Origin: Streptomyces sp. DG2A-72
GTDB taxonomy: Bacteria; Actinomycetota; Actinomycetes; Streptomycetales; Streptomycetaceae
Reading direction: 5' to 3'
Assembly: GCF_030499575.1 (NCBI RefSeq)
Contig: NZ_JASTLC010000001.1
Span: 3,186,001 to 3,250,000, forward strand
Length of the DNA: 64,000 bases
A program made the translations under genes and the position numbers. Under the pieces are notes generated by a model that saw nothing but the letters and a program-made list of their open reading frames with translations, was not told the DNA's origin and did no database searches. This document shows, piece after piece, positions 42,393 to 59,467 of the stretch; within the stretch, counting starts at the first letter, position 1; the number at the start of each line of letters is the position of its first letter.

Positions 42393-45300
42393 GCGCCGCC
42401 CCCGCTGTTTCCGACGTCCCCGACGACCGAGTCGCGGATCGCGCCCGTCAAGTACATGTTGGCGAAGATCTTGTTGGCCAGCTTGCCCATGCCCGCCACC
42501 ACGAAGATGTCGAAGAAGCCCTGGCGGTGGTACCAGCGGCCGGCGATGTTCTGGGTGATGATCGTCCGGGCGAGGCCGGTGGTGACGCCGCCGATCACGC
42601 CGGCCGCCGCACCGGCCGCGCCCACCAGCAGCGCGTCGGTGCCGTAGAGGTGGACGGTGTTGCCGTCCTTGTCCTTCACCCCGAAGATCGCCGCGCTCGC
42701 GCTGCCGCCGATGAAGCCGGACAGGGCGCCGCCGACGATGCTGAGGCCGAAGTCGTACGAGCCCGAGCGCCAGCGGGTGACCTTCTCGTTGCCCGCGAAC
42801 TCGCTCTGCCAGCTGTCGTCGTTGGGGCGGCGGGAGTAGGGCTGGCCCATGTCCATCTGGCCGAGACCCGTCTTCCAGGGCCCGCCCCGGAACGTGGCGA
42901 GGTGCCCGGCCGAGAGGGTGCCCTTGACGCCCGCGCTGACGGTCGCGCCGAAGGCCGCCTTGGCTACGTCGTTCCAGCCGAACTCGCTGCCGGTGGCGGC
43001 CGCGACGATGCCGTAGACGACCAGGTTCATGCTGAAGTCGAGCAGCCACTCCTGGCCCATCTCGACGGCGAGCATCTGGGCGGCCTTCCCGGCGAACGGG
43101 GTGTACACGGCCTCGCCGCCGACGCTGCGGCCGAAGTCCCAGCGGTTGGGTTCGCGCCACATCCGGCTGAAGCCGCGGTACTCGCCGAGCGCGCCGATGA
43201 AGTTGGTCTCACGGCCGATGAGCGTGGTCCGGCCGAAGGTGTCGGTGTTCCAGATGTATCCGGAGATGGCGCGCTGTTCGAGGAGTGTCGTGCCGTTCGG
43301 CCCGCCGTAGCGCCGCCACTGCTTGTGCCACTCCTCGCTCTCCAGGAAGGTGCCGTCGCCGAGATCGGTCTTGCGGCGGATGTCGATCCCGTTGTCGAAC
43401 TCCTTCCACACGTTGGAGTTGAAGGTCCCGCCCACGTCCGGCACGTACTCGCGCACCCGGAACGGCGCGTCGGTGGCCCAGCTGTGGATCGGTCCGGTGG
43501 CCGGGCGGGCCGGGATCTCCTGCACGGTCATGGTGTTGATGGTGGCCGGGTTGTTCGGGTCCGGAGTGGCCACCTGGTCCTGCCAGCGGGCGTCAGGCCG
43601 CCAGCCGGGGAGCACGTTGCCGTTGGAGTCGATCCAGTTCCGCACCCGGTGCGGGGCGCCGCCGCCGAAGTCCATGACGTTGCCGTGCCGGTCGATCTTG
43701 TTCCACTGCCAGGTCTCGGCGCCGGTGTTCGGGTCCCGGCTGACCCGCCAGGCGTCGACGGTGGTGCCGTCCCCCAGCAGCCGGTGCTCGCGGATCAGCC
43801 TTCCCCCGTCGAAGTCCTGGAACGACTCCTTGTCCCAGGCCCAGGTCTCCATGCCCCGCTGGTGCTGTGTCTGCCGGATGCCGTGGGTGCCGTTCGGGCC
43901 GTGCCATTCCAGGGTCTTGGCGCCCGCCGGGCCCGTGGCGGTGATCGTGATGGTGTTGTTGCCGCCGCCGGCCGGGTCGGGCCAGGTGTCCTTGCGGCCG
44001 ACGACCATGCCGTGGGGGTCGTACTTCGTCCAGTCGCCGGTGCCCGCGTGGACGTTCTGCTGGAAGGCGATGTCCCCGTTGCCCGCCTGGCCGTCCGGGC
44101 GGACGGCGGGGGCGGGCCGGTACTCGATCACCGTGCCGTCCTTGAAGCCGGTGCGGGCGACCTCCCACTGCTTGTTCGGGTCGGGCGAGTACCAGTCGCC
44201 GTCGGCACGGTTGGGGGTGAAGCGGTCCTGGAAGAGGATGTCGCCCCGCTGGTAGCCCTGCGGCACGTGGAAGTCGGCGGCCACGTACGTGCGGTGGCCG
44301 TCGAGCTTGCCCGCGCCCTCGGACCAGGGCAGGTAGTTGGCCTGCCGATTGACACCGTTCGGCAGCGGGACGTCGCCGACGGTGAGGTCGTTGCCGCTCG
44401 GCGTCTTGCCGGTCACCCGGACGACCTGTCCGTTCCTCGCGATGTCCGTCGTGACACCGCTCATGCTGACGAACCGCACACCCCGCTCGGGCAGTCCGCC
44501 GGCGGCGGGCGTGAGCTTCCACTCGTGGATCTGGTATCTGCCGTCGAAGCGCAGCCAGCTCGCGTCGGCCAGGCTGGTGGCCCGGTAGTCCCCGCTCATC
44601 GCCCAGCGGGCGAAGAACGGCGGGCGCTGCTCGGCGATCCGGTGGGTCTCCAGGAAGTTGCCGTTGCTCAGCGTCTCACCGCGGTCGATCTCCTTGCCGT
44701 GCGGCGAGTGGGACATCCAGTCCCGCTTGGGGATGCCGTCCGCGCCCATCTCCACCTGGAAGTAGCGGCGTACGTCGTGCGGGCTCGGAGCGAAGCGGCC
44801 GAACTTCTCGTGGACCACGGTGCTCGCGCCGGTCCTCGGGTGGGCCATGGTGTCCGTCCAGCCACGGCCCGGACCCCACTTCCTGGCCCCCTCGGCCAGG
44901 TGGTTGTAGTCCGCGTCGAAGCGGTGCCAGGTGCCGCGGCCCGCGCTCTGTGTCCAGACCGAACGGTCCAGGTTGGCCAGCACATGGCCGCCGTCCGGGT
45001 TCTGCTGGAAATGGCGGACGCGGGTGTCGACGCCCCGGATCGTGGTGACGTCGAAGTAGCTGCGGCCGCTCTCGCCCCAGTGCCGGGTGCCGTGGCGGAC
45101 CGCCGCGCCGGCCCCGTCGAACTCGGTCCACACACCGCGCTGGTTGAAGCGGCCGAAGGTGCCGACCCCGGCGGCGGAGTGGAAGGCGTCGATGGAGCCG
45201 CCGTTGCCGAACGGCAGCGGGCGGCGCTCGAACACCTCGGTGCCGGAGTGGCCGAGCAGCCGGACCCGGCCGTGGTCGATGCCCTTGAGGTCGACCGTCC

Positions 45301-48300
45301 CGCCGTCGTACCAGGGCCGGTTCCCGTTCGGTGGCACCGGGTTGCCGGCCGCGTCCAGGTGGATCCGCTGCCAGGTCGGCTTGGCGCCGCCCGCGGCCGG
45401 GTTCGGGTAGGTCACCTCGATGTGCTGGTTGGGCTTGATCTGGCCCTCGTGGATGACGTTGATCCGCTGGAAGTCGAGTCGGCCGTCGGCGTCGTACCGC
45501 TTGAACTCGCCCTGGTGCGGGGCGCCGACGCCGTCGACCCGGTACTGGCCGTTCGGCTCGCGGGTGACGTTGCCGGGTGTCGGGGTCAGGTCGGCGTCCA
45601 GGACGCGGAGCTGGTTCAGGTCCGTACGCAGGAAGCGGGTGCCGATGCCGTCGCCGAGCCGGACGGTGTCGTACAGGCGGGTTCCGTTCCCGTCGTCGAC
45701 GCGGAAGACGCCGCCCTGGCCGGTGTCGATCACGGAGCGGTCCAGCCTGCCGTCGTTGCCGTAGAGCTGGAAACCGCCGTCCGCCTGCTCCACACGGTGT
45801 CCGCCGCCGGGCCGCGCGGTGACCTTGATGTTCGGTATCTCGGCCAGGTTGTTGTCCACCAGCTCCAGGGCCCCGCCCGGGTGGGCGCGGACGTTCTGGC
45901 CGATCGGCGCACCGGCCGCGTTCTGGAGCCGGACGGTGTCGATGTCGACGCGGCCGTCCGCCGCCCGGTGGACACGGAGGGCGGTCGGGTGTTCGACGAG
46001 GAAACTGCCGTCGGCGCGGACGGTGAGGTGGGAGTTCGGGATGGCGGAGCCGTCGGCGTGCTTGAGTACGGCCGGTCCGTTGACCGGCGTGTGGACGAAC
46101 TCGCCGTTCGCATGGGGGGCGGTGCCGCCGGTCAGCTCCCGGACAGCGGCGGTGTGGTTGCCCCTGATGTCCACGGCGACATGGTCGTTGCCGCGGAGGA
46201 CGCGGAACCCGTTGCCGTCGCCCGACTGGGGGACGACGGTCGCGGTCGGGTGACCGTGCAGACGGGCCGTGCCGACGGGGTCGATCCGTAGCACTCCGCC
46301 GTTCAACGCGCCTCTGGTCAGCGGGAGTTCGTCGTACACGTGCCGGTAATCGGCGCCGTAGACGACCGTGCGATTGCCCGGCCCCGGAACGCGGTACTCG
46401 CCGCCGACATGCGTGATGCCGCCCGGCCGAGGTGCCCCCGCCACGTCGGTACGGACGATCCCCCCGGGCCGGCCCTCGACGGGCCTGTGGACGAACTCGC
46501 CGTCCGCCGCACCACCGTCCAGGCGGCGGGCGGTATGCGTCTGAACACCCGCCTCATTGACCACGATGTGCGGCTGACCGCCACCGTTCTCGATCCGGAA
46601 ACCGACCGGCTGCGTCTCCACACGAGCACCCGGCACCGGATTGCCACCCGCATCGAGCAGATCGTGAGTCGCACGAGTCCCCTCCGGGAAACGGACCAAG
46701 TTGCCGCCCGGCACCGGCAGAACCCGGTGCACATAACCCCCGTCGACCCCGTACACCCGCAGCCAGCTGCCGTTCGCCTCACCCACATGGAAACCACCGT
46801 TGCCCGGCAGAACCCTGACATTGACGCCGGGCCGACCCGTCACACCCACCGTGCCGTCGGCATCGATCCGCAGCACCCCATCGCCCAACGCGCCCCTGGT
46901 CAACGGGAGTTCGTCGTACACGTGCCGGTAATCGGCGCCGTAGACGACCGTGCGATTGCCCGGCCCCGGAACGCGGTACTCGCCGCCGACATGCGTGATG
47001 CCGCCCGGCCGGGGTGCCCCCGCCACGTCGGTACGGACGATCCCCCCGGGCCGGCCCTCGACGGGCCTGTGGACGAACTCGCCGTCCGCCGCACCACCGT
47101 CCAGGCGGCGGGCGGTATGCGTCTGAACACCCGCCTCATTGACCACGATGTGCGGCTGACCGCCACCGTTCTCGATCCGGAAACCGACCGGCTGCGTCTC
47201 CACCCGGGCACCCGGCACCGGATTGCCACCCGCATCGAGCAGATCGTGAGTCGTACGAGTCCCCTCCGGGAAACGGACCAAGTTGCCGCCCGGCACCGGC
47301 AGAACCCGGTGCACATAACCCCCGTCAGCCCCGTACACCCGCAGCCAGCTGCCGTTCGCCTCACCCACATGGAAACCACCGTTGCCCGGCAGAACCCTGA
47401 CATTGACGCCGGGCCGACCAGTCACACCCACCGTGCCGTCGGCATCGATCCGCAACACCCCATCGCCCAACGCGCCCCTGGTCAACGGGAGTTCGTCGTA
47501 CACGTGCCGGTAATCGGCGCCGTAGACGACCGTGCGATTGCCCGGCCCCGGAACGCGGTACTCGCCGCCGACATGCGTGATGCCGCCCGGCCGGGGTGCC
47601 CCCGCCACGTCGAGGTGCCGTATTCCGTTCGTGCCGCCCGGCAGTACGTCGATGCCGACCGTCGTACCGCCGAAGTGGCCGCCCTGCAGGGTGATCTGCC
47701 GCTCGGCGCCGACCAGACGGGTGCCGTGGGCGTCCACGTCGAAGTCCCAGTGGCGGGTCTCGCCGCCGTTGACGTACTCGACGCGGACGATGTTGTCCTG
47801 GCCGATCCGTTCCGCGCGCAGCCCCTGGACTCCGTTCGGGTTGACGATGTTCGGCCGGGAGCCGGGCGTGATGTCGACGCGGACGCCGTCCAGCCCGGGC
47901 ACGTTGACGGCGTGGGCGGGTGTGCTGTTGGTTCCGGAGGGTCCGGCCACGGTGGTGTGCGGCGGCGGGGCCTGAGGCGTGAGGGTCTGGAGCTCGATGC
48001 CCCGGACGACCTGGGTGCCGATCTGCTCGTGGTTCAGGGCGGCGTTCAGGTGGTAGTCGGTCCGGCGGACCGAGCCGTCGCCGAGGTCCTGCTCCACCCG
48101 CAGGAACTGGCCGCCTCCGCCCTGCGGTGTCTCGTAGGTCGCCCGGACTCCCGCAGTGGCGGGGACGACCCGCGGCCCGGTGGCCGTCGGGGTGACTTCG
48201 ACCCGCACGTCGGGCAGGCCGGGGATGTTGGTGAAGGTGTGCTGGAAGTCCAGCGCCTGGTCGTCCTGCATGAAGACCCGGATGGTGCGGTGCTGGTCAC

Positions 48301-51178
48301 GGAACGCGGTCAGGTCGACGCGGCCGAGCTTGGGCAGGTCGACGACGAGGCTGTCGTTGCCGGGCAGGCCCACGCCGCCGTTCTTGGCCGGTCCCCCGGT
48401 GCCGGGCGGCGGTACGTGTGAGGCCGGGCTGCTGTCGAGCCCGCCCGTGGGGGTGTGCTGGACTGTGCCCGGTGTCGGGGGCGCGGTCAGCGCGTTCACC
48501 GGCGCCGGGTTCACCGCGGGCGTACCGCTGACGGGCACGTCCACCCGCCCGAGAGCGGACACGGGCGGTGCGTCCACATGGGCGGCCCCGGCCGGGACGT
48601 CCGACACGACCCCCTTGGGTCCGCCCGCGTTCCCGGTGACGGGGAGGTCCACGCGGCCCACGGACGGCACGTTGACGCTCCCTGCGGCCGGAACCTCGAC
48701 GCGACCCACGGACGGCACATTCACACTTCCCGTGGCCGGGACATCCACCCGGCCCACCGGCGACACACTCACACCCCCCGCCACCGGGACATCCACCCGC
48801 CCCACCGGCGACACACTCACACCCCCCGCCACCGAGACATCCACCCGCCCCACCGGCGACACACTCACACCCCCCGCCACCGAGACATCCACCCGCCCCA
48901 CCGGCGACACACTCACACCCCCCGCCACCGAGACATCCACCCGCCCCACCGGCGACACACTCACACCCCCCGCCACCGGGACATCCACCCGCCCCACCGG
49001 CGACAGGTTCACGTTCACGCTCGCGACCGACGGGACGTCCACGCGGCCGACGGACGGCACGTTCACGCTGCCGACCGACGGGACGTCGACCCGGCCCAGG
49101 GTCGAGCCGACGCCGTTCACCGAGGGGATGTCGGTCATCCGGGCGGCCATCGCCGGGGCGTCCACCCGCGCCGTCGTCGGGCCGTTCGACACCGCCCCTA
49201 GGCTCGGCACGTTGACCTGGTGCACGCCCACCGCGGGGACGTCCGGCGCGGCCCCCATGTTCACCGTGGGCGCGTTGACCTGCCCGAGGCCCATCGTGGG
49301 CACGTTGACCTGGGCGACGGCCGGGACGTCGACCTGGCCGACGGACGGTGTCGACACGGAACCGACGCCGTGCGCCGAGGGGATGTCGGTCACCCGCGCG
49401 TCCACCGAGGGCATGTCCACCCGCACCGCGGTCGGACCGGACGCCACCGAACTCAGACTCGGTACGTCGATCCGGGCGGCGCCGACCGCCGCGATGTCCC
49501 CCACGGCGATGTCGGCGCCCCGGAAGGCGCCCGTGCCGACCGCCCCGACCTGGCTGATCTGGCCCAGCTGCGGCAAGTTCATGTTGCCGAGCCCGACCGA
49601 CTGGGGCACGTTGACGCCGCCGAGCCCGCCCAGTGGGGGCATGTGGACACCGCTGGGTCCGGAAACGGCCGGCAGGTCGGTGATGCGGGCGCCGATGGCG
49701 GGGACGGGCGCGTTGAAGGACCCGCCGAGCCCGCTCAGACCGCCGGTGAGGTTGGTGCTGCCGATCGAGGGCGACAGGTTCACCGGCGGCAGGTTCGTCA
49801 GCCCCGAGCCGAGTCCGCCGGCTGGGGTGGGAGTGAAGCCGGTCAGGTTGATGTGCGACAGGCCGCCCAGGTCGGCGCCGGGCCGCAGCAGCGTGAGCCC
49901 CGACGCGGCGGCCCCGCTGATCTTGCTCGACACGCCGAGGAACTGGCCCCCGGCGAAGGCCCCGTACCGGTACATGCCGAAGACACCGCGGTCGATGACG
50001 CCGATCCTGAGCGCGAAGAGCAGGCCGTTGCCCATCTCGTCCGCGGCGACCGGCAGGAAGAACCGCAGCCCGTTGAGCCCGCGCACGCCGTTCAGCATCG
50101 AGCTGCCCAGCGAACTGCCCAGCCGCCCGATGCCGTTGAGGCCGCTGACCACGCTGCGCACCGCGAAGAAGCTCTTCACGCCCAGCAGGTTGATGACGGT
50201 CAGCTCGGTGGCCACCGGGAGGACTCCGAAACCCTTACCGAGGCCGGCCCCGCCCATGGTGAAGCCCTTGAGCCCAGGCATGAAGACCAGACCGGGCGTG
50301 AACCTCATCCCGCTGATGCCGCGCAGACCGTTCAGCCAGACTCCGGTTGCCCGGAAGGTGTCGTCGATGCCGAGGGTCAGCCGGCCGAGCAGCCCGAACG
50401 CGTTGGGCCCGCCCAGGAACAGGTTCCTGCCGCCCTGGAAGGCGGAGACACCGGCCCCCTTCAGCCCCTTGAACACCGCGCCGACGTTGATGCCCTTGGT
50501 GGTGGGCGCGATGACGCCAAGGATGGAGAGCACCAGTTCGGTGACGCTCGCCTTGCCCTGGGAGAAGTCCACCGCCGTCTTGATCAGCAGCGCCACGTTG
50601 AGCCCGATGGCGAACAGGGCCAGCGGACCGCCGACGATGATCGCGGGGATGATGAGGATCAGCGCCAGCCAGCCCAGCGCCTTCCAGAACTCCTCGCACT
50701 CGTCGATCGGCGAGGCGATGCTCTCCGCCGCCGTGGTCAGCGCGGTCGCCGCCGTCTCGGCGGCCTCCGACAGGATGCTCCCCGCGTCCTCGGCGGTGGA
50801 CTTGTGCGTCTCGCGTCCCTCGTCGTCGTCCTCGGCCAGCGCGGCCGCCGCGGTCAGGGCGGCGTCGGCCCGCTGCTGCTGGGTGCGCATCACACCGACA
50901 TAGGTCCGCAGCGCGGCCTGGGCGTCCTGGTGGGCCTGCCGGAACGTGGATACGTAGTTGCGCAGATCACCGTCGATCACCTTGCGCAGCGCGTCCGCCG
51001 TCTCGCCGATGAAGGCCCCGTCCGTGGTGTTCTTGATCTCCGTAAGCCCGGAGTCGATGGTGTCCGCCAGAGTGACCAGTTCGCCCTGCGAGGTGATGAT
51101 CTCCTCGATCCGGGCGGCGTCGCCCGGGGTGGGGTCACTGCCGAGGCCGAGCGCGCTCCAGTCGGCGGGACGAGCCAT
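42389..51178 (-). CDS. Giant (2929 aa) T7SS-type secreted or surface protein
   Basis: ATG at 51178 follows a perfect GGAGG. Residues 1-150 match the actinobacterial T7SS N-terminal signal domain (PADWSALGLGSDPTPGD, then ESX-like helices). A hydrophobic stretch (168-200) and a Gly/Leu-rich region follow to about 470, then a long low-complexity zone of V-x-V-P repeats, ending in 16-residue tandem repeats near 724-813. From about 1190 come two and a quarter almost identical 194-residue units (THVGGEYRVPGPGNRTVVYG and onward) and further beta-rich repeats of the same general kind to about 2600. The last 250 residues alternate Gly/Ala-rich hydrophobic segments (GLSIVGGALSGFIGGSASAA, GAAAGVIGGVTTGLA), possibly membrane-inserting. 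I see no nuclease, deaminase or protease motif, and no immunity gene. Role as toxin, adhesin or conduit is open. Confidence 0.85.
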   Translation of the reverse strand: MARPADWSALGLGSDPTPGDAARIEEIITSQGELVTLADTIDSGLTEIKNTTDGAFIGETADALRKVIDGDLRNYVSTFRQAHQDAQAALRTYVGVMRTQQQRADAALTAAAALAEDDDEGRETHKSTAEDAGSILSEAAETAATALTTAAESIASPIDECEEFWKALGWLALILIIPAIIVGGPLALFAIGLNVALLIKTAVDFSQGKASVTELVLSILGVIAPTTKGINVGAVFKGLKGAGVSAFQGGRNLFLGGPNAFGLLGRLTLGIDDTFRATGVWLNGLRGISGMRFTPGLVFMPGLKGFTMGGAGLGKGFGVLPVATELTVINLLGVKSFFAVRSVVSGLNGIGRLGSSLGSSMLNGVRGLNGLRFFLPVAADEMGNGLLFALRIGVIDRGVFGMYRYGAFAGGQFLGVSSKISGAAASGLTLLRPGADLGGLSHINLTGFTPTPAGGLGSGLTNLPPVNLSPSIGSTNLTGGLSGLGGSFNAPVPAIGARITDLPAVSGPSGVHMPPLGGLGGVNVPQSVGLGNMNLPQLGQISQVGAVGTGAFRGADIAVGDIAAVGAARIDVPSLSSVASGPTAVRVDMPSVDARVTDIPSAHGVGSVSTPSVGQVDVPAVAQVNVPTMGLGQVNAPTVNMGAAPDVPAVGVHQVNVPSLGAVSNGPTTARVDAPAMAARMTDIPSVNGVGSTLGRVDVPSVGSVNVPSVGRVDVPSVASVNVNLSPVGRVDVPVAGGVSVSPVGRVDVSVAGGVSVSPVGRVDVSVAGGVSVSPVGRVDVSVAGGVSVSPVGRVDVPVAGGVSVSPVGRVDVPATGSVNVPSVGRVEVPAAGSVNVPSVGRVDLPVTGNAGGPKGVVSDVPAGAAHVDAPPVSALGRVDVPVSGTPAVNPAPVNALTAPPTPGTVQHTPTGGLDSSPASHVPPPGTGGPAKNGGVGLPGNDSLVVDLPKLGRVDLTAFRDQHRTIRVFMQDDQALDFQHTFTNIPGLPDVRVEVTPTATGPRVVPATAGVRATYETPQGGGGQFLRVEQDLGDGSVRRTDYHLNAALNHEQIGTQVVRGIELQTLTPQAPPPHTTVAGPSGTNSTPAHAVNVPGLDGVRVDITPGSRPNIVNPNGVQGLRAERIGQDNIVRVEYVNGGETRHWDFDVDAHGTRLVGAERQITLQGGHFGGTTVGIDVLPGGTNGIRHLDVAGAPRPGGITHVGGEYRVPGPGNRTVVYGADYRHVYDELPLTRGALGDGVLRIDADGTVGVTGRPGVNVRVLPGNGGFHVGEANGSWLRVYGADGGYVHRVLPVPGGNLVRFPEGTRTTHDLLDAGGNPVPGARVETQPVGFRIENGGGQPHIVVNEAGVQTHTARRLDGGAADGEFVHRPVEGRPGGIVRTDVAGAPRPGGITHVGGEYRVPGPGNRTVVYGADYRHVYDELPLTRGALGDGVLRIDADGTVGVTGRPGVNVRVLPGNGGFHVGEANGSWLRVYGVDGGYVHRVLPVPGGNLVRFPEGTRATHDLLDAGGNPVPGARVETQPVGFRIENGGGQPHIVVNEAGVQTHTARRLDGGAADGEFVHRPVEGRPGGIVRTDVAGAPRPGGITHVGGEYRVPGPGNRTVVYGADYRHVYDELPLTRGALNGGVLRIDPVGTARLHGHPTATVVPQSGDGNGFRVLRGNDHVAVDIRGNHTAAVRELTGGTAPHANGEFVHTPVNGPAVLKHADGSAIPNSHLTVRADGSFLVEHPTALRVHRAADGRVDIDTVRLQNAAGAPIGQNVRAHPGGALELVDNNLAEIPNIKVTARPGGGHRVEQADGGFQLYGNDGRLDRSVIDTGQGGVFRVDDGNGTRLYDTVRLGDGIGTRFLRTDLNQLRVLDADLTPTPGNVTREPNGQYRVDGVGAPHQGEFKRYDADGRLDFQRINVIHEGQIKPNQHIEVTYPNPAAGGAKPTWQRIHLDAAGNPVPPNGNRPWYDGGTVDLKGIDHGRVRLLGHSGTEVFERRPLPFGNGGSIDAFHSAAGVGTFGRFNQRGVWTEFDGAGAAVRHGTRHWGESGRSYFDVTTIRGVDTRVRHFQQNPDGGHVLANLDRSVWTQSAGRGTWHRFDADYNHLAEGARKWGPGRGWTDTMAHPRTGASTVVHEKFGRFAPSPHDVRRYFQVEMGADGIPKRDWMSHSPHGKEIDRGETLSNGNFLETHRIAEQRPPFFARWAMSGDYRATSLADASWLRFDGRYQIHEWKLTPAAGGLPERGVRFVSMSGVTTDIARNGQVVRVTGKTPSGNDLTVGDVPLPNGVNRQANYLPWSEGAGKLDGHRTYVAADFHVPQGYQRGDILFQDRFTPNRADGDWYSPDPNKQWEVARTGFKDGTVIEYRPAPAVRPDGQAGNGDIAFQQNVHAGTGDWTKYDPHGMVVGRKDTWPDPAGGGNNTITITATGPAGAKTLEWHGPNGTHGIRQTQHQRGMETWAWDKESFQDFDGGRLIREHRLLGDGTTVDAWRVSRDPNTGAETWQWNKIDRHGNVMDFGGGAPHRVRNWIDSNGNVLPGWRPDARWQDQVATPDPNNPATINTMTVQEIPARPATGPIHSWATDAPFRVREYVPDVGGTFNSNVWKEFDNGIDIRRKTDLGDGTFLESEEWHKQWRRYGGPNGTTLLEQRAISGYIWNTDTFGRTTLIGRETNFIGALGEYRGFSRMWREPNRWDFGRSVGGEAVYTPFAGKAAQMLAVEMGQEWLLDFSMNLVVYGIVAAATGSEFGWNDVAKAAFGATVSAGVKGTLSAGHLATFRGGPWKTGLGQMDMGQPYSRRPNDDSWQSEFAGNEKVTRWRSGSYDFGLSIVGGALSGFIGGSASAAIFGVKDKDGNTVHLYGTDALLVGAAGAAAGVIGGVTTGLARTIITQNIAGRWYHRQGFFDIFVVAGMGKLANKIFANMYLTGAIRDSVVGDVGNSGGGA
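46307..47608 (-). repeat. 582-bp tandem repeat (2.24 copies) inside the giant gene
   Basis: Units 47608-47027 and 47026-46445 plus a partial third copy 46444-46307. They agree at nearly every base, including silent positions, so they were duplicated or converted recently. Each unit encodes 194 residues, so copy-number changes keep the frame. Confidence 0.9.
48741..49028 (-). repeat. 48-bp tandem repeat (six copies) inside the giant gene
   Basis: ACATCCACCC recurs at 48741, 48789, 48837, 48885, 48933 and 48981, exactly every 48 bp. The encoded 16-residue unit is VGRVDVSVAGGVSVSP. More degenerate copies continue on both sides within the V-x-V-P zone. There are no spacers between units, so this is not a CRISPR array. 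Confidence 0.9.
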
Positions 51179-51262
51179 CGGGGCGCCTCCTTCTGCTGCC
51201 GGGACGTGCGCCGGGACGCACGCGGACGTGACGTGGGACGTACGTACGGGCCGTCGTCCGTA

Positions 51263-51349
51263 CCGTCCACGCACCGGGACCCCGAGATGGTTCAACGCAT
51301 GGGAAAACAGTGCCTGTTGAACCATTCCGGGGTCCTGGTGCGTGGATGG
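51263..51349. promoter_or_regulatory. Mirror-image divergent ECF-type promoters
   Basis: An almost perfect 34-bp inverted repeat (51263-51296 and 51316-51349). Each arm carries TGAACC, a 17-bp spacer and CGTGGA: plus strand 51318-51323 and 51341-51346; minus strand 51294-51289 and 51271-51266. These are canonical -35 and -10 elements of ECF sigma promoters. They point at the ESX-like operon (start 51388) and the giant gene (start 51178). The ECF sigma encoded at 58958 is the obvious candidate to read them. Confidence 0.75.
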
Positions 51350-51387
51350 GGCGGAAGAGACGGACGGCACACCAGGAGGTACGACGC

Positions 51388-52329
51388 GTGGCGGACTTCT
51401 CCATCGACTACTCGGCCCTGCACACGGTCCAGAAGAAGATGCACGACCTGGCCGACCAGGCCGACTCGGGCGGTGCGACCGGGGCGTTCAAGGAGGTGGG
51501 CGAGGACACCTCCAGCGAGCGCAGGGCGGTCTTCGGTGACTCCGGTCTCTCCTCCGCGTTCAACCTCTTCTACCGCCGCTCCAGCTCCCGTACGAAGCAG
51601 GCCAAGGACGGGCTCGGCCAACTGGCGGACGTCTTCAGCTCCGTTGCCAACACCTTCTTCGACGCCGACGCCCAGCTCTCCAGCGCGGCGGGGCTGATGG
51701 GCTCCAGCATCGGCCTCGACGAATGGAAGAACGACACGGCGGCGTACGAGGCCTGGCAGGAGGACAAGACCGCTTGGGACGCCTACCTCGACAAGATCGG
51801 CGCCGGCGAGTACTTCGACCAGAACCCGGACGCCGACATCAGTGAGGTCTGCCGGGCCGACGGCGCCCCTTCCTGGTGCGAGACCTGGCAGAACGACGAG
51901 GACGCCCCCGATCCGCCGGGCCCCGCACCGGAGAAGCCCTCCGACGACCCGCCGACCACGTACACCTACGAGGACGAGCACGGGACGGTCGAGGTCAAGG
52001 TCGAGCTGAACGACCAGCACGACGTCATGAAGGAGACGTCGACGATCACCACCCCCGACGGCCAGTCCTACACGTCGGTCACCACGTACGACTCCGCCCC
52101 GAAGATCATCGATCCGGAGGGCGACGGCACCAAGGACGCCTTCGACGCCCGCGACTACACCATGGTCACCACCTACGCGGACGGTTCGAAGACCACCAGC
52201 GTCTTCACGATCAGCGACGACGGCTCGGGAACCATGACGAGCACCGACCAGGACGGCAAGGTCACCGTCTCCACCCGCTCCGGCCCGGACGCGGAATGGG
52301 TGACCCCCGAAGACGACGAAGAAGAGTAG
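51388..52329 (+). CDS. ESX-like T7SS substrate with acidic C-terminal domain
   Basis: A 313-aa protein without signal peptide. GTG at 51388 is preceded by AGGAGG at good distance. Residues 1-100 form a WXG100-like helical hairpin (FSIDYSALHTVQKKMHDLADQ, then FNLFYRRSSSRTKQAKDGLGQLADVF). A middle region follows with a short Trp-rich stretch (DEWKNDTAAYEAWQEDKTAW) and a Cys pair (EVCRADGAPSWCETW). The C-terminal half is a repetitive, acidic beta-rich domain (TYEDEHGTVEVKVELNDQ, TTYADGSKTTSVFTISDDG). First gene of the right arm, expressed from the mirrored promoter. Probable export substrate; function not known. Confidence 0.75.
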   Translation: MADFSIDYSALHTVQKKMHDLADQADSGGATGAFKEVGEDTSSERRAVFGDSGLSSAFNLFYRRSSSRTKQAKDGLGQLADVFSSVANTFFDADAQLSSAAGLMGSSIGLDEWKNDTAAYEAWQEDKTAWDAYLDKIGAGEYFDQNPDADISEVCRADGAPSWCETWQNDEDAPDPPGPAPEKPSDDPPTTYTYEDEHGTVEVKVELNDQHDVMKETSTITTPDGQSYTSVTTYDSAPKIIDPEGDGTKDAFDARDYTMVTTYADGSKTTSVFTISDDGSGTMTSTDQDGKVTVSTRSGPDAEWVTPEDDEEE

Positions 52330-52352
52330 AGACCGGGAAAGGACCCCTCCCC

Positions 52353-52664
52353 ATGGCAGCCAACATCAGCCTCTCCTACGCCGAGATCGAACGTGTCGCC
52401 GGCCTGCTGGACACGAGCGTCGACCAGACCCTGGTCCCGCGCATGGACGAGGCCAAGCAGGAAGTGGACACCCTCCTGGACACGGCTCTGATCCTCACCG
52501 AGTCCAGCCCCGCCCTCCAGGTCCAGTACGAGAAGTTCACCACCTCGCTGAAGGAGGCCACCGACAGCATCAAGGGTTACGCCGAGCAGTTCCGCAAGAT
52601 CATGGAGTCGGTGAAGGGGATGGACCACGACATCGCCGAGAAGGTCAACAGCAGCGGCCAGTAG
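52353..52664 (+). CDS. WXG100-like ESX protein (first of pair)
   Basis: A 103-aa helical protein of the size and pattern of EsxA/EsxB-type T7SS substrates: ISLSYAEIERVAGLLDTSVDQ, then LLDTALILTESSPALQVQYEKFTTSLKEATDSIKGYAEQF. The usual W-x-G turn is absent; the equivalent position reads ALILTESSP. ATG at 52353 follows AAAGGACCCC. It lies 23 bp behind the preceding gene and 63 bp before its partner, with which it probably forms a heterodimer for recognition by the ATPase at 53136. Confidence 0.8.
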   Translation: MAANISLSYAEIERVAGLLDTSVDQTLVPRMDEAKQEVDTLLDTALILTESSPALQVQYEKFTTSLKEATDSIKGYAEQFRKIMESVKGMDHDIAEKVNSSGQ

Positions 52665-52727: not shown

Positions 52728-53057
52728 ATGGCAGCAGGAAGTCCCGATGTCCTTTTCGATTACGACGAGATCGCCCGGGCCGCCACGGCCATGGGCAACA
52801 AGCTCACCGACATCTCCAACGAACTGACCGACCTGGAGACCACGGTGAGCGGCCTGCTCCAGGACGGCCTGGTCTTCGAGAAGGCCAGCCCCGCGCTCAG
52901 GGACGCGTACGAAGCCTTCAGCAAGCAGATGAAGTCCTCGGCCAGCAACATCGGGGAGTACGGCAAGAGCTTCCAGGACATCGGCGAGTCGATCGCCCAG
53001 TCCGACCAGGACATCGCCAACGAGGTCATCAAGGCCCAGAGCGAGGCGAACGCCTGA
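52728..53057 (+). CDS. WXG100-like ESX protein (second of pair)
   Basis: A 109-aa helical protein: VLFDYDEIARAATAMGNKLTD, then LLQDGLVFEKASPALRDAYEAFSKQMKSSASNIGEYGKSF. It is a clear paralogue of the preceding gene (the turn reads GLVFEKASPAL against ALILTESSPAL) and likewise has no W-x-G. A good AGGAGG precedes the ATG. The C-terminal VIKAQSEANA may hold the export signal, although the Y-x-x-x-D/E motif is not obvious. A strong hairpin ends the operon behind it. Confidence 0.82.
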   Translation: MAAGSPDVLFDYDEIARAATAMGNKLTDISNELTDLETTVSGLLQDGLVFEKASPALRDAYEAFSKQMKSSASNIGEYGKSFQDIGESIAQSDQDIANEVIKAQSEANA

Positions 53058-53135: not shown

Positions 53136-56100
53136 TCAGCCGTCCAGCACCGTGAGCGGCACCTGGACCGCGATCGGGGCGCCCGCCTCGCTCGCCGTCC
53201 AGCCGCGGCCGGGGGCCAGCGGGGTACGGACCTGCTCGGAGGAGATCCGCACCCCGATGAGGTCGCCCTCCCCGATCGACTTCGGCCCGAGCAGGATGCC
53301 GCGCCGCGAACGGCGGGCCATACCGACCCAGCCGAGGGAACTCATCGACTCGGGCAGCCCGGCGAGCAGCAGGCCCTGCTGTCGGTCGCGCCCCGAAGTG
53401 GCAACCTGCCGGAGCACCTTGTCGGCCCCGCACGACAGGAGCAGGTCCGCGTCGTCCACGACGATGACCACCGGTTTCCCCGAGACCGCGCGCAGGGCCT
53501 GGGTGACCGCGTCCGCCGAGGGGTCGTGGTCGGTGATGACGTGGGCGAGATCGTGTGCGGCGAGCTGCCGCAGCTGCGAGTCGCGCGGCGCGAGGACGAC
53601 GAGTGCCGTGCCGCCCATCAGGAGGGACACGCACATGGAGGCGAGCGTCGTGCTGCGCCCCGAGCGCGGGGGCCCGGCGACCAGGAAGGAGCCGCCGCCG
53701 GCCGCGAAGTCGAAGCCCAGGGGCTCGGCAGTGTCGCCGCCGATGCCCACCAGGGCCCACAGCGGGCGGCGCTGGGCCTTGGGGACGCGGTCCACCGCCT
53801 CCTGGAAGCCGATCAGGGAAGGGAGTTCCTCGATGCGGAAGGGACGGCGGACGACCGGGAGCGCGGAGTCGCGCGCGGTGGTGCGGCGGCCGATCTCGGC
53901 CAGCGCCTCGCCCTGGTCGGCGCCGTCCTCGGTGGGCAGCAGCGCGATCTGGGCCTCGACACCGCTTGGGGCGTGCCAGCCGCGGCCGGGCGGGATGTGC
54001 GCCGGAACCTTGCCACGGCCCATTCCGGCGACGTTGTAGTCGCTGAGGTCGGCCTGCTTGAGCAGGAACCGGCTGTCGTTGTGGGCGGCGAGGCGGCCGC
54101 CCAGCAGGATGCGTTCGGAGGTGGCGATGACATGGATTCCGGCCGCCGCGCCCTCCCTCAGCAGCCGTACGACCTCGGAGTACAGCCGGCCCCCGTCGTA
54201 GTCGTCGAGCATCGCGCTGAGCGCGTCCCAGCCGTCGATGAGCAGCAGCAGACGGGCCGGGCGACGGTCCTTGGGGAGCTTGGCGCGCAGTTCGCCGATG
54301 CCGGCGGCGCTGTGCTGCGAGATCAAGCGCTGACGGGCCGTCAACTCTGCCGTCAGGCGGGAGATCAGCCGCTCCAGGCGTTCCGTGTCGTGCCGCGAGA
54401 CGACCGCTCCGCAGTGCGGCAGGGACTCCAGGGCGGCGAGACCGCCGCCGGCCGCGTCGATGCCGTAGATGTGCAGGTCGGAGCTGGGGATGACGAGGGC
54501 GGCGGAGCCCGCGACGGTCCGCAGGACCTGGGTGCGCCCGGAGCGGGGCGAGCCGATGACGTAGAGGTGGCCGAAACTCGCGAAGTCGATCGTGCCGAGC
54601 CGTTGTTGCTGCAACTGCGGGACGTCCATGAGGGCGTACGGCACCAGCGGCAGCCCACCGGGTTCGGGCGGCGGGCAGGGCGGCAGGGATTCCATGCGGA
54701 CGGTCTCGGCCAGCGGGGGCAGCCAGGGGCTGCGCTGCGGCTTGTAGTCGTCGAGGAGCTCGGCGGCCCGGCCGAGAGCCTCGACCAGGGCGCTCAGGTC
54801 GGTGACGGGTTCCTCGCCGCCGGTGCGGTACTCGAAGGGTTCGTGCTCGTCCTCCGCGGCCAGGTCGGCGGGGCGGCCCAGCCGGTTCCAGGTCAGCTCG
54901 ACCCCTCGTACGGGACGGGAAGGCGTCACCGATTCGGGCGTGGCGGCTGAGGCGCGCTCGGCGCCCACCCAGGCCGTCTGGAACGGGGTGGGGGCGCCGG
55001 ATCCGCGCCGGATGAGGGCGCGGCCCGGGGTGGAGGGCGAAATGCTGGCCGCTTCCGGCGCGTTGATGATGTCCTGGCTCTCGGAGCGGTCGGTCACCCG
55101 CAGGGCGATCCGGAGGTTGGTGTTGGCCTTGATCTCGTTGCTGACCGAGCCACCGGGCCGCTGGGTGGCCAGGACGAGGTGCAGGCCCAGCGAGCGGCCG
55201 CGCTGGGCGAGGCTGATCAGGCCCGGCACGAACTCGGGCAACTCCCTTACGAGGGTGGCGAATTCGTCGATGACCAGGAGCAGTCGGGGCAGCGCGGGCA
55301 GCTTCGGGTCGCGGGCCCGCTTGGCCCGGTACTCGGGATGGTCCTTGGCCTCGACGTCGGCCAGCACGCGTTCACGGCGGCGCAGTTCGGCGTCCAGCGA
55401 GGCCAGGGCCCGCTGCACCAGATGACCGTCCAGGTCGGTGATCATGCCGAGGGTGTGCGGGAGTTCGGCGCACTCGCTAAAGGCGCTGCCGCCCTTGTAG
55501 TCGACCAGCACGAAGGCCAGTTCGTCGGGCCGGTTGACGGCGGCCAGTGAGGCGATCATGGTCTGCAGCAGCTCGGACTTGCCGGATCCCGTGGTGCCGC
55601 CGATCAGCCCGTGCGGCCCGTCCCTGACCAGGTCGAGGCGGAGCTCGCCCTCGTACCCGGCGCCGAGCGTGAACATGGTGGAGGCCGGCCGGCGGGCCCA
55701 ACCCGCCGCTATCGCGGCCGGGTCGGGCGGTTCCTGGCCGAGCAGCGGCAGCAGCCGTACGTCGGAGGGCAGCCCGGAGTCGCTGTCGACCGTGACGTCC
55801 CGCACGGGCGCGAGAGCGCGGGCGACCTCCTCGCACCAGTCGGCGCCGACCAGGTCGGCCCGGATGTCCTCCACGGAGGGCACTCCGGACGCCCGTACGG
55901 TCAGCCGGTTGCCCTCCGCCGTGATGACGGCGGTGCACTCCTCGGGCAGCAGCCGTTCGCGTTCGTCCACGCACAGACTGAAGATCCGCACACCGGGTCC
56001 GCCGGTCAGGACCTGGACGACGCCGGGCACGTCCCGCAGCCGACGGGCACCGTCGAGGACGACCAGCACATCCGGTTCGCGCAGCAGGGTGTGGCCCAGC

Positions 56101-57707
56101 GCGGAGGTGGCGGCGGACGTCCTGGCCTGGATGTCGGCGATCAGTTCGTTGACGCGGTGGGCCGTGCTCTCCGGGTCGTTGCCGAGCGCGATGACCGAGC
56201 CGCGGCGGTCGGGCCGCAGGTGCGGCAGCCAGCGCACCCAGTTCCAGGCGTCCGCGTGCGCGTCGTCGGTGAGGACGACGATCCGCAGGTCCCGGGGACT
56301 GTGCAGGACGGCGGCCTGCGCGACGGCCCAGCAGGCCACCGTACGAGGGGTGCCGCCGGGCCCGGACAGGCCCACGACGCCGAAGTCGGCCAGTTCGACG
56401 CCGAACGGCACGTCGGCCAGGCGCCAGTGCACCTGGCGGTGGTTGGACTCGCGGGCCTGGTCGTCGATGCGCTTGAGGGACGGGCGGGTGACCGTGCCGA
56501 GCCTGAGGGTGAGGTGGTCGGGGTCGCGGCGGCGGCGCTGCCACAGCAGGCTGCCGGGGCCGGTGGCGGTGAGCAGGACGGTGGCCGGGTCGGGGAACGT
56601 GATGTTGCGCAACTGCCGTTCCGCCACGGTCGCGTCGCGCATCTCCAGCTCCAGGGAGGCGCGGCGCAGCCGGTAGATGCGCAGTGCCTCCTCCTGTTGC
56701 TTGCGCCCGGTGCGGCGGCCCATGATCCAGTTGCTGACCGCCATGATCGGCGTGAAGAAGATGAAGATGATGAAGTAGAAGGAGCGGAACAGGCTCATCA
56801 GGACGAGGCCCATGACCAGCGGCATCAGCATCATCAGCACAGGGAACGGCCGTGAGCCGCGTTCGCCGGGCGGACCCTGCATACGGATCTGCTCGCTGTC
56901 CAGGTGCGGGGCGATGCGCGGCGGCCGGTTGTACTCGATGGCCAGGCCGTCGGCCGAGGGGTTGACGGCCGCGTCCGGGTCGAACAGCGGGCTCAGCCGC
57001 AGCAGATGGTCACCGAGCGACAGGTCGGCGTACGCGGGCCAGTCCTCCGAGCCGTCGTCCGGCGGCGGAAGCCAGCCGACCGGGGGCAGCGGGGGCTGTT
57101 GCGGCAGACCGTCCGGTCCCGGCCGGGCGGGCTGCGGGGTGTGCCCGCCGGGGCCGCCGTCCTGCGGGCCCGCCGGTTCCTCGGCGGTCAGCGGGGTCCC
57201 GGTCTCCGGGTCGACGGGCGGCGGCGGGGTCAGGCTGCGCAGCCCGCAGCGGGCCTGGTCGGCGTTGCCGGGCAGCCGGTAGGTCACCGTGCCGTCCGTG
57301 CCCACGGTGATCCACACGCCCTGCTCGGGCGCGCCCCCGCCGTCCAGCCGCAGGGCGCAGCCCCGGTCGGTGCCGGCTTCGTGACTGCCGGGCCCCAGCC
57401 GCCAGGACCGCCCGGCGCCGGGCCCGCCCACATGCCGGATCTCCACCAACTCCGGGTCGGAGGAGGGAGGTTCCCAGGCGCGGGCGGCCGTGCGGGCCGG
57501 CACGGGGGCGCCCAGGCCGACCACGACGCCCGCACGGATGCCGCTGGCGCCGATGGGCAGATCGGGGCCGAGCAGCCGGTCGCCCAGATACAGCGGCCCT
57601 GCCTCCAGAGCGGCGCCGAGGTCGCCGACCGTGGCCCCCTCGGGCAGGTCCAGCAGATGGTCCGCCCGGCGCCCGGCCGGGTCGGCGGTGGTGAGGATGA
57701 GGTTCAC
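53136..57707 (-). CDS. T7SS FtsK/SpoIIIE-type ATPase (EccC/EssC-like)
   Basis: A 1523-aa motor of the secretion system. GTG at 57707. Residues 1-160 resemble the N-terminal forkhead/ubiquitin-like module of EssC (MNLILTTADPAGRR, RHVGGPGAGRSWRLG). Two membrane helices lie at about 286-322 (PVLMMLMPLVMGLVLMSLF, YFIIFIFFTPIMAV). Three FtsK-like ATPase domains follow: D1 with a canonical Walker A GGTTGSGKS (to S711) and LLLVIDEFATLV; D2 with GSPRSGRT (1052-1059) and LLLLIDGW; D3 with GPPRSGRS (1345-1352) and VVIVVDDAD. In D2 and D3 the invariant Walker A Lys is Arg, so only D1 looks fully active. It converges on the ESX operon and lies behind the sigma-factor gene. Confidence 0.92.
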   Translation of the reverse strand: MNLILTTADPAGRRADHLLDLPEGATVGDLGAALEAGPLYLGDRLLGPDLPIGASGIRAGVVVGLGAPVPARTAARAWEPPSSDPELVEIRHVGGPGAGRSWRLGPGSHEAGTDRGCALRLDGGGAPEQGVWITVGTDGTVTYRLPGNADQARCGLRSLTPPPPVDPETGTPLTAEEPAGPQDGGPGGHTPQPARPGPDGLPQQPPLPPVGWLPPPDDGSEDWPAYADLSLGDHLLRLSPLFDPDAAVNPSADGLAIEYNRPPRIAPHLDSEQIRMQGPPGERGSRPFPVLMMLMPLVMGLVLMSLFRSFYFIIFIFFTPIMAVSNWIMGRRTGRKQQEEALRIYRLRRASLELEMRDATVAERQLRNITFPDPATVLLTATGPGSLLWQRRRRDPDHLTLRLGTVTRPSLKRIDDQARESNHRQVHWRLADVPFGVELADFGVVGLSGPGGTPRTVACWAVAQAAVLHSPRDLRIVVLTDDAHADAWNWVRWLPHLRPDRRGSVIALGNDPESTAHRVNELIADIQARTSAATSALGHTLLREPDVLVVLDGARRLRDVPGVVQVLTGGPGVRIFSLCVDERERLLPEECTAVITAEGNRLTVRASGVPSVEDIRADLVGADWCEEVARALAPVRDVTVDSDSGLPSDVRLLPLLGQEPPDPAAIAAGWARRPASTMFTLGAGYEGELRLDLVRDGPHGLIGGTTGSGKSELLQTMIASLAAVNRPDELAFVLVDYKGGSAFSECAELPHTLGMITDLDGHLVQRALASLDAELRRRERVLADVEAKDHPEYRAKRARDPKLPALPRLLLVIDEFATLVRELPEFVPGLISLAQRGRSLGLHLVLATQRPGGSVSNEIKANTNLRIALRVTDRSESQDIINAPEAASISPSTPGRALIRRGSGAPTPFQTAWVGAERASAATPESVTPSRPVRGVELTWNRLGRPADLAAEDEHEPFEYRTGGEEPVTDLSALVEALGRAAELLDDYKPQRSPWLPPLAETVRMESLPPCPPPEPGGLPLVPYALMDVPQLQQQRLGTIDFASFGHLYVIGSPRSGRTQVLRTVAGSAALVIPSSDLHIYGIDAAGGGLAALESLPHCGAVVSRHDTERLERLISRLTAELTARQRLISQHSAAGIGELRAKLPKDRRPARLLLLIDGWDALSAMLDDYDGGRLYSEVVRLLREGAAAGIHVIATSERILLGGRLAAHNDSRFLLKQADLSDYNVAGMGRGKVPAHIPPGRGWHAPSGVEAQIALLPTEDGADQGEALAEIGRRTTARDSALPVVRRPFRIEELPSLIGFQEAVDRVPKAQRRPLWALVGIGGDTAEPLGFDFAAGGGSFLVAGPPRSGRSTTLASMCVSLLMGGTALVVLAPRDSQLRQLAAHDLAHVITDHDPSADAVTQALRAVSGKPVVIVVDDADLLLSCGADKVLRQVATSGRDRQQGLLLAGLPESMSSLGWVGMARRSRRGILLGPKSIGEGDLIGVRISSEQVRTPLAPGRGWTASEAGAPIAVQVPLTVLDG

Positions 57708-57731: not shown

Positions 57732-58961
57732 TCAGCTGTGCGTGGACGTGGTGCCGGGGGCCGGGGCGGCGGGCTCCGGGCGGGGGCCGGCCGTGCGGGA
57801 GGCGCCGGGGAGCGGGGCCTCGCCGCTCGTGTGCAGGGATGTGCCGGACGCGTCAGGCGTACCGCGGGACACCCTCGGCGCTTCCCCCACGTCTTGGTCT
57901 TCCTCTTCTTCTTCGAACAGGTCGCGCGCATGGCGGCCGGACAGTCCGGTCGAGGCCTCGGCGGCCGAGGCGGGCGGCAGGACGGGCGGGATCGAGGGCA
58001 GCGCCCTGGCCACGGCGCGGCCCAGCGGGCCGCAGCGGGCCAGCAGCGGGGTCCCGGTGACGGCCACCCTGCCGTGCCGGTCGGTCAGCAGGGAGCGGAC
58101 GTATGCCCGGCCGGGGCCCAGGACCACTGCCCGGACCGTGGGGTCGTCCCCGGGCGGGGCGGCGAACTCCGGGGGCAGCGGGTCCGGCAGTTCGGCCGCG
58201 ATCAGCACAGGTGCGACACCGAGCCGGGGCGGGGTCTCCCGGGCGGTCCGGTAGGCCGACCGCACCGGGGGGCCCGGGTAGTCCCGGTGCACGCCCTCGG
58301 CGACGACGACCAGCGGGCTCGGCAGCCGTACGTCGAGCTGCGCGGCGACCGCCTGGACCAGGGCCGTGGCCGCCCGGTCGTTCCCGGTGACGGAGAGCAC
58401 GGGCGGGCCGACGGCCAGGTCGAGGAAGGCCACCGACCGGTCCGCCTCACCGACGGCGACGATGATCGGGCGGACGTCGGCCGCCTCCGGTGTCACCGAG
58501 GGCAGGTCCGCGCGGGCCACGAGCCATCGCTCCGGTTGGTCCGGCTCCGTCCACCACGCCCCGTCGGGGTCGGGCTGCGCGAGTTCGGTCCCGGCGAGGA
58601 GCACGGCGACCGAGTCGGAGGCCACCAGCGCGGCGTACGGCCGGGCCGGCGCGGCGGCCAACCGGGCCGCGGCCAGGGCCCGTTCTGCGTCCCGCCAGTT
58701 CGCGGGGGTGCCCAACTGCCGTACGAGCAGCCGCAGACTCCTCCGGTGGCGGTACCAGGCCCGCACGGGCGCGGTGAACGCGTAACGCGTGACGGCCACT
58801 TCACGGCGCAGCCGCGCCCAGGCCGCGCGCCAGCCGCCCCAGCGCATCGCCCACACGCGCAGCAGCAGGAAGACCAGCAGCAGCGCTCCGGCGATGCCGA
58901 GCACCCGGTAGATGGTGTCACTGTGCTGCCGGAAGAAGACGAAGGGATCGGTGTTCCTCAT
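57732..58961 (-). CDS. T7SS-locus membrane protein of unknown function
   Basis: A 409-aa protein with one strong membrane helix near the N-terminus (YRVLGIAGALLLVFLLLRVWAM), a basic stretch, and a large soluble part that ends in an acidic run (EEEEEDQD) and a Pro/Ser/Thr-rich tail. I recognise no family. ATG at 58961 overlaps the sigma-factor stop, and its stop is 25 bp before the EccC-like start region, so the three genes form one operon. It could be an EccE/EssB-like structural partner of the ATPase or, from its place directly behind the sigma gene, an anti-sigma factor. It has no zinc-binding anti-sigma motif. Confidence 0.65.
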   Translation of the reverse strand: MRNTDPFVFFRQHSDTIYRVLGIAGALLLVFLLLRVWAMRWGGWRAAWARLRREVAVTRYAFTAPVRAWYRHRRSLRLLVRQLGTPANWRDAERALAAARLAAAPARPYAALVASDSVAVLLAGTELAQPDPDGAWWTEPDQPERWLVARADLPSVTPEAADVRPIIVAVGEADRSVAFLDLAVGPPVLSVTGNDRAATALVQAVAAQLDVRLPSPLVVVAEGVHRDYPGPPVRSAYRTARETPPRLGVAPVLIAAELPDPLPPEFAAPPGDDPTVRAVVLGPGRAYVRSLLTDRHGRVAVTGTPLLARCGPLGRAVARALPSIPPVLPPASAAEASTGLSGRHARDLFEEEEEDQDVGEAPRVSRGTPDASGTSLHTSGEAPLPGASRTAGPRPEPAAPAPGTTSTHS

Positions 58962-59467
58962 GCCGCCTGGATCTGGTCTCGTAGCGCCAACAGGGCATAG
59001 TGGTTACGCGACTTGACGGTGCCCTGCGGGACCCCGATGGTCCGCGCGGCCTGCGCCCGGGTGTGGTCGCGCAAGTGGATGTGGAACAGCACCTCGCGAT
59101 GCTCGGGCGACAGTCCCGCCAGGGCCAGCCGGACGACCTGACGGTCGGCGACGCCGTCGGCCAGGTCGCCGGCACTGTCCGGCCGGTGCACCATGTCGTC
59201 CGGGATCACGCCGACTGGAACGGCGCGGTCGCGTCGGCGGGCATCGACCGCGAGATTGCGGGCGACGCGGTAGAGCCAGGCGATCCGGCGGTCCTCGTCG
59301 TACCGGTCGAGGTCGGCGGCGGCCAGCCAGGCCCTCAACATCGTCTCCTGCACGATGTCCTCGGCGCGGTGCCGGTCTCCGGAGGTGAGCCGGTACGCGT
59401 AGCGGAGCAGGCGAGCCCGGTAGCGCTCAGCGGTTGGGGGAGAGCCGGGTAATTGAGCGTGAGACAT
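58958..59467 (-). CDS. ECF (SigE-type) RNA polymerase sigma factor
   Basis: A 169-aa sigma factor with region 2 (RYRARLLRYAYRLTSGDRHRAEDIVQETMLRAW, WLYRVARNLAVDARRR) and region 4 (LSPEHREVLFHIHLRDHTRAQAARTIGVPQGTVKSRNHYALLALRD). Regions 1.1 and 3 are absent, as in all ECF factors. ATG at 59467 follows TTGGAGCC; an in-frame ATG at 59503 adds 12 residues. It heads the operon with the membrane protein and the EccC-like ATPase. The twin promoters at 51263-51349 have the ECF form and are its likely targets. Confidence 0.9.
   Translation of the reverse strand: MSHAQLPGSPPTAERYRARLLRYAYRLTSGDRHRAEDIVQETMLRAWLAAADLDRYDEDRRIAWLYRVARNLAVDARRRDRAVPVGVIPDDMVHRPDSAGDLADGVADRQVVRLALAGLSPEHREVLFHIHLRDHTRAQAARTIGVPQGTVKSRNHYALLALRDQIQAA

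Follow-up and report, generated by a model that had tools for sequence, protein, structure and literature searches.

The window analysed here, the whole 64,000-nucleotide stretch from Streptomyces sp. DG2A-72, contains a type VII secretion (T7SS)-like locus in which a giant gene and a group of WXG-like genes diverge from two outward-facing, promoter-like sites, with an ECF sigma factor gene in the same locus. Its features, from left to right, are:

39783..42392, minus strand: right-handed beta-helix and EccA-like AAA ATPase gene; its ATG overlaps the giant-gene stop
42389..51178, minus strand: giant gene, 2929 aa, predicted leftward target, with a weak N-terminal T7SS_signal match
51266..51271, minus strand: -10 region CGTGGA of the predicted leftward promoter (start expected near 51257 by sigma-L numbering)
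51289..51294, minus strand: -35 element TGAACC of the predicted leftward promoter
51295..51317, no strand: 23-bp centre between the -35 elements, 48% A+T against 30% A+T for the window, containing GGGAAAACAG
51318..51323, plus strand: -35 element TGAACC of the predicted rightward promoter
51341..51346, plus strand: -10 region CGTGGA of the predicted rightward promoter (start expected near 51355 by sigma-L numbering)
51388..52329, plus strand: 313-aa protein, first predicted rightward target, no match in Pfam or NCBIfam
52353..52664, plus strand: 103-aa WXG-like protein (ESAT6_2 at E 8.7e-4, below cut-off; no Pfam match)
52728..53057, plus strand: 109-aa WXG100-like protein (PF06013 at E 2.3e-5, 25.0 bits, cut-off 27.3)
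53136..57707, minus strand: EccC/EssC-type FtsK ATPase, by domain and family profile matches
57732..58961, minus strand: 409-aa membrane-type protein (EccE-like), whose start overlaps the ECF stop
58958..59467, minus strand: ECF sigma factor, SigL-like

The match of the giant protein to PF21725 (T7SS_signal) scored 20.9 bits (E 3.6e-4), below the cut-off of 27. A conserved front and an exchangeable remainder are hinted at by G156, G037 and G105, where the top tblastn alignment to this protein (42389–51178) is limited to the first ~250 residues. For the neighboring beta-helix/AAA gene, the domain scan covered 39783–42389 and the start was taken from the sequence. Further left, two adjacent minus-strand genes (37852–39783) share an identical stretch near their N termini, PARSPRGLVPGRRVWLSLGWGGA, and end in different C-terminal domains (a ricin-type lectin match in one, ChW in the other), as if the pair were partly duplicated. 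The EccC protein was matched by TIGR03924/25/28 at E 2.2e-95 or better, below their curated cut-offs and with the best curated-family score for the Firmicutes EssC, and by FtsK_SpoIIIE above cut-off; EccB, EccD and mycosin found no match among the locus proteins scanned. The 409-aa protein had no match in Pfam or NCBIfam, and among the 89 homologues listed three carry a type VII secretion name, with EccE in two of them. A role of this protein as an anti-sigma factor was rejected, since some homologues are named EccE and its relatives are kept in loci that lack the ECF gene (G605, G241 and G528); no neighboring anti-sigma gene was recognized, the gene next to the ECF gene being that of the 409-aa protein. 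The ECF, EccE-like and EccC genes form a convergent minus-strand operon of their own. The longest ECF reading frame begins at 59503, 12 codons before the proposed start at 59467 (MSHAQ, after TTGGAGC), and the latter is more likely because the 12 extra codons are absent in L018, L019 and L021 and TTGGAGC precedes the inner ATG.

Positions 51266–51346 hold two TGAACC-N17-CGTGGA sites facing outward, 23 bp apart, with their -35 elements inward; the minus-strand site runs from 51294 down to 51266 and the plus-strand site from 51318 to 51346. The 34-nt arms (51263–51296 and 51316–51349) are identical at 30/34 positions, in agreement with the near-perfect inverted repeat described in the initial annotation, and a repeat search returned one inverted repeat with 43-nt arms, 84% complementary. 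The A+T-richer centre might possibly act as a shared UP-like element. A genome search for TGAACC-N17-CGTGGA, suggested there as a check, gave two exact matches in the 10.58-Mb genome, both at this locus, and the pattern TGAACC-N16/17-GCGTGGA also gave two matches and none outside the locus, against one for the reversed control. A lone 12-base match is not unusual; the opposed pair is rare. Structured RNA was rejected as an explanation of the repeat, as Rfam at gathering thresholds gave no match in 50000–62000 and the repeat lies, save for its last few bases, upstream of the predicted starts. The two sites had been described as aimed at both arms of the locus, and this view can be kept for the giant gene on the left and for the 313-aa and two WXG-like genes on the right, not for the EccC, EccE-like and ECF genes: within the window the motif is absent before the translocase (EccC) operon, and the sites thus do not drive the locus in its entirety.

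A divergent pair of this kind was found in 33 T7SS-like loci, with the giant gene on one side and the 313-aa/WXG genes on the other. The TGAACC core is present in 28 of them, including G367 (found via the pair pattern), L014 (a named relative) and the weaker 313-aa matches G526, G084, G399 C177 and G403 C42. In five further loci (G394, G396, G397, G405 and G407), all from one genus of another family, both arms read AGAACC or CGAACC-N17-CGTACC; these loci are covered by a -35 core that was relaxed from TGAACC to GAACC after the G397 sequence had been seen. The 313-aa protein itself occurs in 13/246 Streptomyces genomes, the window's genome included, and in 25/391 genomes of the order by an alignment-based search; the pair accompanies it in 12/12 relatives from the 246-genome search and in 11/11 strong order-wide matches (E<=3.3e-107, the window's genome and G133 among them). 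In the opposite direction, the pattern GGTTCA-N10-40-TGAACC-N16/17-GCGTRGA matched 8/392 Streptomyces genomes, always at this locus type, with none for the reversed control; patterns with a G before CGT detect only 17- and 18-bp spacings and miss the 16-bp loci. When 16 intergenic regions were shuffled by mononucleotide, an opposed GAACC-N16/17-CGT pair arose in 0/32,000 shuffles. In the divergent regions of G526 and G084 (L117 and L118), CCAACTGAC lies beside both -10 elements on the same strand.

A wider regulon was rejected, since strict single sites with 17- or 18-bp spacing outside the locus are not in excess over other genomes: hand counts gave 12 beyond the locus in the 13 locus-bearing genomes and 82 in 81 comparison genomes (reversed control 61), seven locus matches in four genomes having been set aside from the latter. 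As far as the 17-/18-bp pattern sees, the regulon thus apparently consists of these two promoters.

The pair is closely associated with the ECF gene of the locus, which neighbors the EccE-like gene or that of EccC in 31/33 pair-bearing loci; in the remaining two, G396 and G397, the contig ends before the ECF position, and some other loci are on split contigs. Among the 246 Streptomyces genomes, the 13 best ECF matches (E<=7.4e-42, a cut-off placed at a gap in the match list) are the same 13 that carry the 313-aa gene. The next match, G084 (E 7.4e-36), comes from a distant form of the locus that has the pair, and those at E 1.2e-32 and weaker we take to be ordinary SigL-like paralogues. Conversely, four loci lack the local ECF gene (G605, G241, G395 and G528), with EccC present and at least 2.5 kb upstream of the EccE-like gene (in G395, of EccC), and none of the four has the pair by either pattern. 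For the 24 + 4 loci known at the time, the pair was in 24/24 ECF loci against 0/4 ECF-less loci (Fisher p 4.9e-5), a value to be read in the light of loci that are not independent, shared ancestry weakening every count. In EccC trees of 34 and 33 rows, drawn without G367 and the five relaxed-core loci, the pair-bearing loci fell in two separated, well-supported clades, which takes a minimum of two joint gains or losses. A strict rule linking the ECF gene to a TGAACC pair failed in G394, G405 and G407 and was rescued only via the GAACC relaxation. G605, G528 and G241 retain TGAAC half-elements, alone or facing each other, that have no CGT 16–17 bp away and are perhaps remnants.

Four loci of another layout (G399 C361, G399 C110, G403 C333 and G406) are not part of this presence/absence table. 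G399 C361 has opposed TGAACC-N17-CGTCTC and TGAACG-N17-CGTATC sites about 1 bp apart. In the second family, the clusters L131, L132 (G403 C333) and L133 encode another SigL-like ECF factor at a different place, which in L132 is immediately before the 313-aa gene, and they have a single TGAACG-N16-CGTA site.

The two arms vary together. Promoter variants include CGTGG(A/T), CGTAG(A/T), CGTGGTC, CGTTT(C/G) and GAACC/CGTACC, and the variant within a genome is mostly common to both arms; the -10 elements differ between arms in G549/G461 (CGTGAG vs CGTGTT or CGTGTA) and in G156/G037 (CGTGGA vs CGTAG). With 16 of the 28 loci as representatives, and permutations that retain shared ancestry, identity between arms at CGT+1..5 was 3.44 within against 2.07 between genomes (0/20,000 permutations), and covariation extended to CGT+6..13 (p 1e-4) and, weakly, into the spacers (p 0.012–0.04 by segment). 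All 28 loci were used in a second run and 19 in a sample with three relaxed-core loci; with the most divergent lineages left out (10 loci), covariation was weaker but persisted (p 0.018, 0.006 and 0.007). Such a pattern would be expected from a reader common to both arms, and copying between the arms may add to it.

The initial annotation had raised such copying, and recent copying or gene conversion could in principle have made the arms alike independently of a shared reader. Spacer identity, at 8.69 of 16 within against 7.27 between genomes (p 0.001) and 14/17 in this strain, is in line with a limited contribution of this kind, the effect being weak. Covariation, however, peaks at the -10/discriminator and was absent, among the same 16 representatives, just upstream of the -35 element (p 0.76) and at CGT+14..27 (p 0.36), and the two spacers are unlike in several relatives. 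We therefore consider copying as a replacement for the common reader to be very improbable, while it can coexist with the common reader and explain part of the arm likeness.

Conservation through the spacers, from which a second bound factor had been proposed, was not borne out by the wider comparison. The GGGGTCC stretch is confined to near relatives and the middle of the spacer is unconserved; its conserved part adjoins the -10 element, with C in 31/32 arms followed by G (29/32), T (27/32) and G (28/32) in 16 genomes, the arms having been picked by TGAACC and CGT(G/A)G(A/T), which fixes those columns by selection. Moreover, the gap between the arms ranges from 2 to 158 bp in the 28 loci. Given this range and spacers that are mostly unconserved between genomes, no second factor across the dyad is indicated, and a factor on spacers or dyad was rejected. 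The same range, with no phasing by eye, speaks against reading the inverted repeat as an operator at which a dimeric regulator would bind both arms and control divergent ordinary promoters. Such an operator would suit the near-perfect dyad of this strain, but the conservation at the hexamer ends and the -10-proximal spacer, together with the promoter-like spacing of 16–17, makes it highly unlikely. In L115 (G399 C177), the -35 hexamers are merely 2 bp apart, and simultaneous binding by two polymerases is hardly possible there.

By its domains, the local ECF protein is a two-region sigma factor, with PF04542 and PF04545 (and an overlapping PF08281) above cut-off and nothing else. Its best PDB match is M. 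tuberculosis SigL (6dv9, E 8.4e-25), and it scored 138.8 bits (E 1.7e-40) against NF007227 (PRK09645), which we take to be SigL, the library label naming only a sigma-70 family; the match to the SigM family was weaker (E 2.4e-16). As the curated cut-off of 202 bits was not reached, we refer to it as SigL-like rather than SigL. The -35 element of sigma-L may likewise be TGAACC. For the -10 element, the consensus in the available text of PMC6372665 is C-14 G-13 T-12 G-11 N-10 C/A-9 A-8 G-7, with the preferred CG included, and both arms, reading CGTGGA(T/C)G, agree with it at 6/7 specified positions, all but -8; other lineages have A or T at -11. The start numbering of both predicted promoters follows the same text. 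It also reports that His54 and Asp60 of sigma-L read T-12 and G-11; the local factor also has acidic residues, but the loop lengths differ and the alignment is too ambiguous to assign counterparts of the two.

Several residues of the ECF proteins follow the promoter variants. At the position following the region-2 Trp, 5/5 ECFs from loci whose two arms both have CGTAG carry Arg, which none of the other readable pair-locus ECFs shares (G461 being unreadable). G156 and G037, where a single arm has CGTAG, carry Leu; Gln accompanies CGTGGTC, Phe accompanies CGTACC, and the rest have Leu or Ile. Two ECFs from loci of the other layout also have Arg and lie near single TGAACG-N16-CGTACC sites, and the CGTAG/Arg group may have a single origin. 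In the region-4 helix, an Asn (KSRNH) is present in 15/17 loci with a 17-bp arm and a known ECF (12 Streptomyces loci, G010 and G618 among them with 16 bp on their other arm, and three of the second family; absent in G399 and G403) against 0/14 loci with 16 bp on both arms. These patterns were seen post hoc, except for predictions written down for four genomes whose ECF gene lies on another contig; the predictions held, with Ile for Leu in G403, where the ECF was chosen from two candidates by its EccC neighbor.

The promoters might be real and yet depend chiefly on a different SigL-family ECF factor encoded in this genome, for instance at C1:3893885 or C1:9521429, whether or not the local factor also takes part. 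Against NF007227, three ECF paralogues of the strain outscore the local factor (267, 239 and 187 bits vs 139), two of them passing the cut-off. The genes of two of the three are themselves preceded by a similar site, TGAACA-N16-CGTACC and TGAACC-N15-CGTCGA; related sites (TGAAC-N16-19-CGT) occur at 5/27 SigL-like paralogue loci, where shuffles expect 0.24 and the reversed control gave 0/27. However, the four ECF-less genomes keep SigL-like factors elsewhere (best identities to the window ECF of 45, 45, 46 and 41%, one of them ~20 kb away in both G605 and G528) and have no pair, so the presence of a paralogue alone does not track it; in addition, the pair pattern matched only this locus type among 392 genomes and the pair variants accompany those of the local ECF. 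A distant reader is thus improbable, albeit less so than an operator or copying.

We therefore favor, with a probability of about 0.8, reading the region as a back-to-back promoter pair for the SigL-like ECF sigma factor of the same locus. The two mirror-image ECF-type promoters proposed at the outset, one per arm, are supported by the sequence of the sites, the co-occurrence with the ECF gene and the arm covariation, and the proposal of the gene at 58958 as their natural reader gains further weight from the predictions that held. According to this reading, RNA polymerase with the local ECF factor would recognize TGAACC through region 4 and CGTGGA through region 2, and would initiate leftward near 51257, toward the giant T7SS-signal protein and the beta-helix/AAA protein, and rightward near 51355, toward the 313-aa and the two WXG-like proteins.

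With no anti-sigma gene recognized, the factor would be controlled at the level of its own transcription. No TGAAC-CGT pattern that could serve as an autoregulation site precedes the ECF operon in the window, and such a pattern was found before the ECF gene in 1/23 loci (G565, as TGAACG). Upstream of the gene, 59601–59629 on the minus strand contains the direct repeats TCTGAGC-N4-TCTGAGG-N4-TCTGCTC with an 11-bp period, and TCTGAG direct repeats were found in 9/23 loci by the pattern used. Direct repeats with an 11-bp period are a layout known from SARP/OmpR-type sites. An inverted repeat, TGGGCAAC...GTTGCCCA, lies at 59643–59670 on the minus strand, also occurs in L014 and is degenerate in G079. 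In the most likely mechanism, a signal would switch on the ECF/EccE-like/EccC operon, perhaps through the TCTGAG repeats, and the ECF factor would then turn on the presumed substrates on both sides as a one-way switch. Since the ECF gene shares its separate operon with the EccE-like and EccC genes, activation of that operon would yield the translocase and, via the sigma factor, its presumed substrates.

A broader reading, which we put forward tentatively and regard as unlikely in full, is that the sigma factor and its promoters form a self-contained, co-inherited module, the code of which drifts in one piece. Every lineage would then have its own -35/-10 variant, mostly in both arms, matched by the region-2 residue (L, R, Q, F or I) and the region-4 helix, with the region-4 Asn accompanying the 17-bp spacer in two families, and closely packed arms would lead to competition between polymerases and alternate firing of the effector-side and WXG-side genes.

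The nearest known case we found is mycobacterial SigM/ESX-4, where, in the accessible text of PMC10117145, the ECF factor SigM activates esx-4 genes in two divergent operons. Both systems join an ECF factor to T7SS genes in two divergent operons, here as predicted from sequence. In contrast, the local factor fits NF007227 far better than the SigM family, and its gene sits with the EccC and EccE-like genes rather than under the paired sites. M. tuberculosis sigma-L is the nearest solved relative and shares most of its -10 consensus (PMC6372665, available text); unlike the sigma-L system, the present one has no motif before its own operon and no recognized anti-sigma gene, and the specificity loop of the local factor differs, its NF007227 score lying under the cut-off. 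The locus resembles ESX/T7SSa and T7SSb systems, as covered in the portion of PMC11217815 at hand, in its EccC/EssC ATPase, WXG100-like proteins, EccA-like AAA protein and EccE-named relatives. It differs in that the scan of the locus proteins gave no match to EccB, EccD or mycosin, which belong to the mycobacterial T7SSa type, and in an EccC that stays below curated cut-offs and scores best to the Firmicutes EssC. The word Streptomyces is absent from the main text of PMC11217815, and searches of open-licence PMC papers gave no title on such an ECF/type VII divergent-promoter arrangement in Streptomyces. Relative to SigM/ESX-4, what differs is a sigma factor of another group that travels with its locus and apparently has only two opposed promoters.

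These findings point to how a Streptomyces secretion locus that has received little study may be switched on. With promoters and factor side by side in 31 loci and at least five variants, the system allows a direct test of the sigma residues behind spacer length and the -10 specificity of ECF factors, and since the switches and the sigma factor change together across relatives, it offers a good natural experiment in the evolution of a switch.
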